Shown here piece by piece: positions 51,810-56,608 of a stretch of DNA of 64,000 nucleotides. The stretch is from an uncultured Pelagibacteraceae bacterium (GTDB lineage Bacteria > Pseudomonadota > Alphaproteobacteria > Pelagibacterales > Pelagibacteraceae). How positions within the stretch are numbered: the stretch's first letter is position 1; each line of letters begins with the position of its first letter. The stretch is taken from contig CACDUV010000003.1 of assembly GCA_902556065.1 (NCBI GenBank), positions 1 through 64,000 of the forward strand, in the 5' to 3' direction. Made by a program: the position numbers and the translations under genes. The notes beneath the pieces were generated by a model, which searched no databases, was not told the DNA's origin, and saw nothing but the letters and a program-made list of their open reading frames with translations.

Positions 51810-51875
51810 CCACCATTATTCAAACACATTTATTTCCAATCTAGGCCACACTAATTTTTTATTTAATGGTTATAT

Positions 51876-51940
51876 TCTGATCAAGAGTGTTAAAAGTTAG
51901 TCTTTCTTTATTATCTCCCCCCTCTCCATTCTTGATCAGA
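51876..51940. repeat. Perfect 11-bp inverted repeat TCTGATCAAGA/TCTTGATCAGA with a 43-nt C-rich loop; possible sRNA hairpin or paired operator
   Basis: Arms 51876-51886 and 51930-51940; loop contains CTCCCCCCTCTCC; right arm followed by TAATTTTT. Confidence 0.7.
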
Positions 51941-51987
51941 TAATTTTTCACAATAGTATTTTTTAAATAAATCCCTAAATTAGAGAT

Positions 51988-52695
51988 ATGTTTAAACTTC
52001 TAGAGCCAAATAAAATTTTTCAAATTACTTCGAAGGCGCCAAAATATGTTTTGTTTTTATTTATTATTGTCCTATCTGTTGGATTAGTTGAAGCACTTAT
52101 ATTGTCTCCGGAAGATTACAAGCAGAGTGACGCTGTCAGAATTATGTATGTTCATGTTCCTGCCGCTTGGATTTCTCTTGGAATTTTTTCTTCAATAACT
52201 TCTTTATCAATTTCAGGATTTATTTTTAAAAACAAAAATTTTTTTTTAATATCTAAAAGTTTAGCACCCTCAGGCTTTGTTTTTAATATTATTGCTTTGG
52301 TAACTGGTTCTATCTGGGGCAAACCCACTTGGGGTACATGGTGGGCCTGGGATGCGAGAATTACTTCAATGTTAATTTTAGCTCTATTTTATGCTTTATA
52401 TTTAATCTCTTGGAGAATTTATGAAAATGAGGAAAAAGTTTTTAAAATCTCAACTTTTATTACTATTCTCGGAATTATTAATGTGCCGATAATTAAGTAC
52501 TCTGTTGATTGGTGGAATACACTTCACCAGCCTGCTTCAATAAATATCTTGTCAAAAAGCTCGATCCATTCATCAATGCTTTATCCGTTATTGATAATGA
52601 CTGCGGCATTTGCTCTTTTTTCGTTGTTAATTTTCTTAATGAAATATAATACAGAACTGATAAAAATTAAAAATAAAGGCTTAGATAGATTATGA
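51988..52695 (+). CDS. ccmC: Heme exporter protein CcmC
   Basis: MYVHVPAAWISLGIF, WGKPTWGTWWAWDARITSMLILALFYALYL WWD-type heme motif. Confidence 0.97.
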   Translation: MFKLLEPNKIFQITSKAPKYVLFLFIIVLSVGLVEALILSPEDYKQSDAVRIMYVHVPAAWISLGIFSSITSLSISGFIFKNKNFFLISKSLAPSGFVFNIIALVTGSIWGKPTWGTWWAWDARITSMLILALFYALYLISWRIYENEEKVFKISTFITILGIINVPIIKYSVDWWNTLHQPASINILSKSSIHSSMLYPLLIMTAAFALFSLLIFLMKYNTELIKIKNKGLDRL

Positions 52696-56101: not shown

Positions 56102-56608
56102 ATGTATTTAAAAAAAATTTTAATTTTATTTTTAGCATTTATGATCTCATCAAATGCGGAGGAAATTAAACAGAGAGATTTAAACAACCAGTTTAATGTT
56201 TACACTGGAATGTTTGATTTCAGTGATGACGGAAAAAAGTCAGAATTAATTGGTTTTCAGCATCAAAATGAAAATTTAAATAGAGATACTTTTTTAGGAA
56301 ATTTATCACCTATTACTGGTGCCCTTATTACTGCTGATAGTGCGGCTTATATTTATACAGGAGTAGAAGCTCAATATAAAATAGGATCTTTAAATTTTAA
56401 TCCAAGTTTTGCTCCTGGATTATATCATGAAGGTGATGGAAAAGATCTTGGCCATGTTTTAGAATTTAAAACTGAACTTCAGATATCATTTGATATGTCC
56501 GAAAATAGTCAATTTGGCTTTTCATATAACCACTTATCTAATGCTAGTTTAGGAAGTAAAAATCCTGGGGCAAATAGTTATATGTTTAATTTCTTCAAAA
56601 GCTTCTAA
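56102..56608 (+). CDS. PagL-like acyloxyacyl hydrolase / lipid A 3-O-deacylase
   Basis: Signal peptide, PSFAPGLYHEGDGKDLGHVLEFKTELQISFDMSENSQFGFSYNHLSNASLGSKNPG. Confidence 0.88.
   Translation: MYLKKILILFLAFMISSNAEEIKQRDLNNQFNVYTGMFDFSDDGKKSELIGFQHQNENLNRDTFLGNLSPITGALITADSAAYIYTGVEAQYKIGSLNFNPSFAPGLYHEGDGKDLGHVLEFKTELQISFDMSENSQFGFSYNHLSNASLGSKNPGANSYMFNFFKSF

Follow-up and report, generated by a model that had tools for sequence, protein, structure and literature searches.

Comparative sequence evidence for a structured RNA behind hspQ in the Pelagibacteraceae, with a C-rich loop resembling an anti-Shine-Dalgarno sequence

Described C-rich small RNAs and the hspQ-ccmC gap

The C-rich small RNAs (sRNAs) of the RsaE/RoxS type in Firmicutes carry UCCC-type seeds aimed at ribosome-binding sites (RBSs). 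In rhizobia, the silencing of transporter mRNAs by sRNAs with anti-Shine-Dalgarno (anti-SD) loops is established (PMC8844928, PMC10746234). NfeR1 presents very conserved CCUCCUCCC motifs in hairpins on variable stems, silences mRNAs at the RBS, and is not bound by Hfq, and AbcR1 and AbcR2 silence ABC transporter mRNAs via the RBS (PMC10746234, PMC8844928). From the lineage studied here, Meyer et al. (2009; PMC2704228) listed structured RNAs of P. ubique that are conserved and lie in long gaps between genes.

The window (the whole 64,000-nucleotide stretch analyzed) comes from an uncultured Pelagibacteraceae bacterium and contains a 178-bp gap, at 51810 to 51987, between an hspQ-like gene and ccmC, both on the plus strand and both where the preliminary description had placed them (Table 1). 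SAR11 bacteria rank with the most abundant cells of the ocean; their regulators are very few, and their noncoding DNA is scarce. The inverted repeat first noticed in this gap was recovered exactly, with TCTGATCAAGA at 51876 to 51886 and its perfect reverse complement at 51930 to 51940 after a spacing of 43 nt, as were the C-rich loop string CTCCCCCCTCTCC and TAATTTTT after the right arm. The full stem comprises 14 bp with one G-U (51876 to 51889 with 51927 to 51940). A perfect 11-bp inverted repeat with a spacing of 3 to 60 nt arose in 7 of 2,000 dinucleotide shuffles of the gap, the predicted fold of the plus strand is more stable than those of the shuffled gap (z = −2.7), and only two of the 13 comparable 11-bp repeats in the window have at least 4 G/C, this one among them. 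Taken alone, the rarity of the repeat in shuffles is only suggestive. The decisive argument against a chance repeat is the comparison with relatives, which identifies the inverted repeat, on sequence grounds, as part of a previously unrecognized structured RNA.

Table 1. Features of the hspQ-ccmC region of the window
Feature	Positions	Strand	Sequence	Basis or remark
hspQ-like gene, 106 aa	51489–51809	+		ORF; constant 5′ neighbor of the hairpin
Conserved upstream block	51820–51850	+	TCAAACACATTTATTTCCAATCTAGGCCACA	Alignment of 89 distinct gaps, upstream frequencies, other genera
5′ stem arm	51876–51889	+	TCTGATCAAGAGTG	Fold, genus covariation
Loop, 37 nt	51890–51926	+		Single-stranded in predicted fold; 17–52 nt across genera
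Loop core	51910–51925	+	AUUAUCUCCCCCCUCU (genus consensus AUUAUCUCCCUCU)	Invariant alignment columns; kept in all genera
3′ stem arm	51927–51940	+	CATTCTTGATCAGA	Fold, genus covariation
AT-rich tail	51941–51955	+	TAATTTTTCACAATA (genus consensus TTTTTCATAATAAA)	Conserved in genus alignment
ccmC	51988–52695	+		ORF; 3′ neighbor of the hairpin here and in most genera

The SAR11 RNA resembles NfeR1 and its αr14 family (Rhizobiales) in having a conserved unpaired C-rich anti-SD motif on widely variable stems. However, αr14 RNAs have three hairpins, each with CCUCCUCCC, whereas the SAR11 RNA has one hairpin with one (AU)CUCCC(UC) motif, sits behind hspQ, and has a target that is only a candidate. 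With AbcR1 and AbcR2 (αr15) it shares single-stranded anti-SD motifs and transport-gene RBSs as would-be targets (PMC8844928), but the AbcR RNAs are 114 to 121 nt long, lie in tandem beside lsrB, and bind Hfq, whereas the SAR11 RNA is predicted to be shorter, is present in a single copy behind hspQ, and occurs where no Hfq was found. Judged by the features compared, it is outside both families, and by analogy it may work like them. Searches of Rfam gave nothing relevant at the gathering threshold and no bacterial RNA family at an E value of ≤5, although the αr14 model may not be in Rfam 15. The hspQ-ccmC gap is not in Table 1 of Meyer et al., which starts at 26% G+C, and neither ccmC nor hspQ is mentioned there (PMC2704228). 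The hairpin RNA is thus uncatalogued in Rfam and in the 2009 P. ubique survey; the ocean small RNAs of Shi et al. (2009) could hold reads from it.

Conservation of the hairpin and the strand under selection

A blastn search with the region found a match in 206 of 300 genus genomes. We aligned the gap (89 distinct loci) and the hairpin (70 sequences). Within the genus, 99.1% of the 980 stem cells are paired, and 8 of the 14 stem pairs show compensatory changes on both sides with pairing kept. There are 17 double-changed paired cells, whereas shuffles give 2.4 and none of 500 reached the observed count, and sliding one arm by 1 to 3 columns lowers pairing to 34 to 46%. The unpaired invariant residues cluster in the loop core AUUAUCUCCCUC, which is the most conserved unpaired segment both within the genus and across genera. 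The preliminary description had made its RNA reading depend in part on pairing and loop being conserved in relatives, and both are. Among named Pelagibacteraceae or Pelagibacterales loci in the public collection, the hairpin with CTCCC is found in 79 of 80, and the remaining locus has TATCCC at the same place. A covariance model built from the genus alignment finds one true copy per genome, with second matches on the opposite strand of the hairpin locus or within coding sequence. Extra matches in three genomes (G081, G477, and G106; L154 to L156) and at L150, L152, L153, L157, L168, and L169 lie inside or overlap coding sequence and were set aside as chance.

Covariance-model and HspQ searches reached all 14 sampled genera (g1 to g14), and in 14 of 14 the hairpin lies directly 3′ of hspQ. 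The stems are unrelated between genera: TCTGATCAAGAGTG in the window, GCCTAGTTAGGGAC in g6, AGTCCAGTTTGAAG in g9, and TGTCTGGTTTGGAG in g12. When one hairpin per genus is considered, 12 to 14 of the 14 positions are paired (11 of 14 in L370, whose arms the search displaced); these counts are model-free but biased toward structure, as the best arms were chosen. We also aligned 24 distinct sequences from across the genera. Double changes affect 11 of 14 pairs, and covariation is 0.630, versus 0.376 in shuffles; this alignment was fitted to the model and so leans toward structure. The loop keeps CUCCC near the 3′ arm in all genera, usually as AUCUCCCUC. A stem rewritten in 14 of 14 genera with pairing and loop intact points to strong selection on an RNA that has no database entry.

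Outside the family, the CTCCC-plus-arms test found no hairpin behind hspQ at any of 27 loci from other Alphaproteobacteria. A class-wide search with the covariance model returned SAR11-like genomes only, apart from one match that was dismissed as chance after inspection revealed no CUCCC loop. Phage copies were sought by exact pattern in viral contigs and by blastn of phage records, and none was found. One assembly filed in another family of the class (G776; L208 and L369) has very Pelagibacter-like hspQ, ccmC, and hairpin sequences and is probably misfiled or mixed. In one g6 genome (L140, 722 to 870), the 3′ half of the hairpin is tandemly duplicated just downstream.

The wobble pairs indicate which strand is selected, since G-U is tolerated in a plus-strand RNA, while A·C on the plus strand corresponds to G-U in a minus-strand RNA. 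In the genus stem, there are 116 instances of G-U or U-G and 6 of A·C or C·A. The wider cross-genus alignment has 51 G-U and no A·C, and when limited to one or two loci per genus, the counts are 26 and 0. As G-U far exceeds A·C, we conclude from the alignments that selection acts on RNA of the plus strand and not on a DNA operator. An open frame can also be read on the minus strand through the window's hairpin. By inspection, any such frame is broken by variation in the C run (3, 4, 5, or 6 among relatives) and in loop length (17 to 52 nt). The preliminary proposal of a structured RNA with a C-rich, anti-SD-like loop is therefore borne out as to structure, strand, and loop conservation, and we infer that the RNA is a separate, trans-acting sRNA.

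Biogenesis and mode of action

We hold with moderate confidence that the gap encodes a separate plus-strand sRNA whose anti-SD loop acts in trans without Hfq. Its transcription would begin at or just before 51876, from its own promoter at the conserved block 51820 to 51850, and yield an RNA of about 70 to 80 nt whose body would be a single hairpin holding the (AU)CUCCC(UC) loop single-stranded. The loop core is a candidate anti-SD-like seed. As in anti-SD sRNAs generally, a structured RNA here carries a conserved CU-rich seed that is single-stranded. By analogy with NfeR1 and AbcR1/AbcR2, the CUCCC loop would pair in trans with G-rich RBSs and block translation. The pairing would be independent of Hfq or aided by another chaperone, because Hfq (PF17209) was found in none of 30 Pelagibacteraceae genomes, several of them complete, with positive controls in E. 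coli, Caulobacter, and others; SAR11 appears to lack the protein. Should the RNA prove to be an anti-SD sRNA, it would give posttranscriptional regulation to a lineage in which Hfq was not found.

The upstream block follows a pattern of about AACA-N9-CAAA-N4/5-GACA, lies 30 to 60 nt 5′ of the stem, and is conserved through the family. It is probably a promoter −35 region and possibly an activator site, since its position fits either role for a start at the stem base. A scan with the sigma-70 consensus gave no match at this block, and there is no clear −10 box upstream of the hairpin. On the other side of the stem, no strong terminator is seen, and the AT-rich tail is possibly a weak terminator or a 5′ leader of ccmC. 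The lack of a clear −10 box and of a strong terminator weighs against a separate sRNA, as does the absence of the U-run after the stem in g2 and g4. The loop core itself has a run of 6 C in the window, compared to the usual 3. Among relatives (window 51913 to 51922), the run is 3 in most and 4 to 6 in the window's clade and its neighbors, an odd change of length in an otherwise invariant seed.

The hairpin could instead act in cis as the 5′ leader of the ccm operon or its replacement gene, exerting control through a protein or another factor that binds the C-rich loop; we regard this as unlikely, although several observations agree with it. A same-strand gene follows the hairpin within about 20 to 100 nt in all cases, and several genera have no convincing terminator. 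On published P. ubique arrays, sulfur-limited cells in stationary phase had about 5- to 10-fold more ccmC transcript (PMC5069961); the locus is therefore regulated, with some control acting at this start site. However, the neighbor that stays constant in every genus examined is hspQ, on the 5′ side, and the gene on the 3′ side varies. ccmC follows in most genera, but in g3, g6, and g8 its place is taken by a lipid A deacylase-like gene, so that the constant association expected of a ccmC leader is not seen and the hairpin appears to be kept independently of ccmC. The original placement "upstream of ccmC" accordingly holds for the window, where the hairpin adjoins that gene, and fails as a general rule. 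Moreover, none of 82 loci has a GGGAG or GAGGG that could partner the loop in the stretch from the hairpin to codon 20 of ccmC. The missing cis partner and the variable downstream gene together favor action in trans. The argument from the downstream gene is not absolute, because loss of ccm from a single operon could explain the change in g3, g6, and g8: the gene that follows there is a homologue of the one behind the window's ccm cluster (56102 to 56608). The loci in which hspQ and the lipid A deacylase-like gene have no ccm cluster between them are L138 to L141, L143, L144, L370, L372, and L373.

Another reading, which we consider quite improbable, is that the hairpin is the 3′ untranslated region of hspQ and is processed from the hspQ mRNA into a trans-acting sRNA, which differs from a separately transcribed sRNA solely in the biogenesis of the RNA. 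The position of hspQ directly 5′ of the hairpin in every genus is the tightest linkage found, and hspQ was also missing from the assembly in those genus genomes that gave no hairpin match and were checked, but the block 30 to 60 nt 5′ of the stem is promoter-like and conserved beyond the needs of a spacer. It is very improbable that the hairpin serves hspQ solely as a simple intrinsic terminator. It does lie 60 to 70 nt past the hspQ stop codon, with T-rich sequence after it in several genera. Termination, however, needs neither a 17- to 52-nt loop nor its conserved CUCCC core, nor would it call for the conserved block upstream; the U-run near the stem is absent in g2 and g4, and a terminator scan that admits only loops of 3 to 8 nt did not call it. 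Finally, the earlier suggestion of a DNA dyad, in which two TGATCA-centered transcription factor sites control ccmC, is barely credible, since the window's arms are indeed palindromic at TGATCA and conserved within the genus, but other genera have unrelated yet pairing arms (GCCTAGTTAGG, GTCCAGTTTG, and TGTCTGGTTTGG) and G-U freely replaces A-U and G-C where A·C does not, and paired operators would neither give such a wobble bias nor survive the replacement of their arms.

Candidate targets

For the separate trans-acting sRNA, we conjecture that the mRNA of proteorhodopsin and some transporter mRNAs are among the targets. A broader proposal is rather unlikely as a whole. Under it, a family-wide, probably single-copy, Hfq-independent anti-SD sRNA, kept despite extreme streamlining of the genome, would set how far SAR11 translates proteorhodopsin and nutrient transporters and would couple this to the signal that drives the hspQ-ccmC locus; sulfur or stationary-phase stress would be one candidate for that signal. 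We scanned one complete relative (G297), using a simple script to call its start sites. Those best matching the loop include the sites of proteorhodopsin, a Na/solute symporter, TRAP solute-binding proteins, and amt. SD motifs are weakly used in this genome, with AGGAG in 40 of 1,159 start regions, which makes the few genes with a strong G-rich RBS of interest.

Proteorhodopsin is the leading candidate by sequence match. The RBS in its leader, AGAGGGAG, is an exact 8-nt complement of CUCCCUCU, and in G297 the exact AGAGGGAG occurs at the RBS of proteorhodopsin only. The RBS GAGGGAG is kept in 24 of 24 genomes checked (the genus and g4) and is absent from the proteorhodopsin leaders of g6, g9, and g5, which carry the hairpin. 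In genomes whose loops have 4 or 5 C, the RBS stays GAGGGAG and thus does not covary with the C run, and the predicted pairing there is reduced, in two genomes to about −11 kcal/mol, with no compensating change. Genome-wide, RBS complementarity to the loop core is not significantly enriched (7 7-mers compared to 3.3 in shuffles, with 140 of 1,000 shuffles as high). The G-rich sites, that of proteorhodopsin included, may be ordinary conserved SD sequences. A contact at the proteorhodopsin start site, if real, would bear on the control of light-energy capture.

Other candidates were rejected. RBS complementarity is not conserved for isocitrate lyase (aceA) and is variable for the TRAP protein DctP, and the conserved GGAGG site of amt looks like an ordinary SD. 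A general preference for solute-binding proteins was also discarded, as their genes are equally common among AGGAG-type start sites and the enrichment is not significant. Separately, the proteorhodopsin leader (L285 to L308) is strongly conserved about 40 to 120 nt 5′ of the start, with a TAGTTTATATAAACTA-type palindrome followed by ACTAAC and then by AGAGGGAGTTTTTT before the ATG, and it may be a regulatory leader in its own right.
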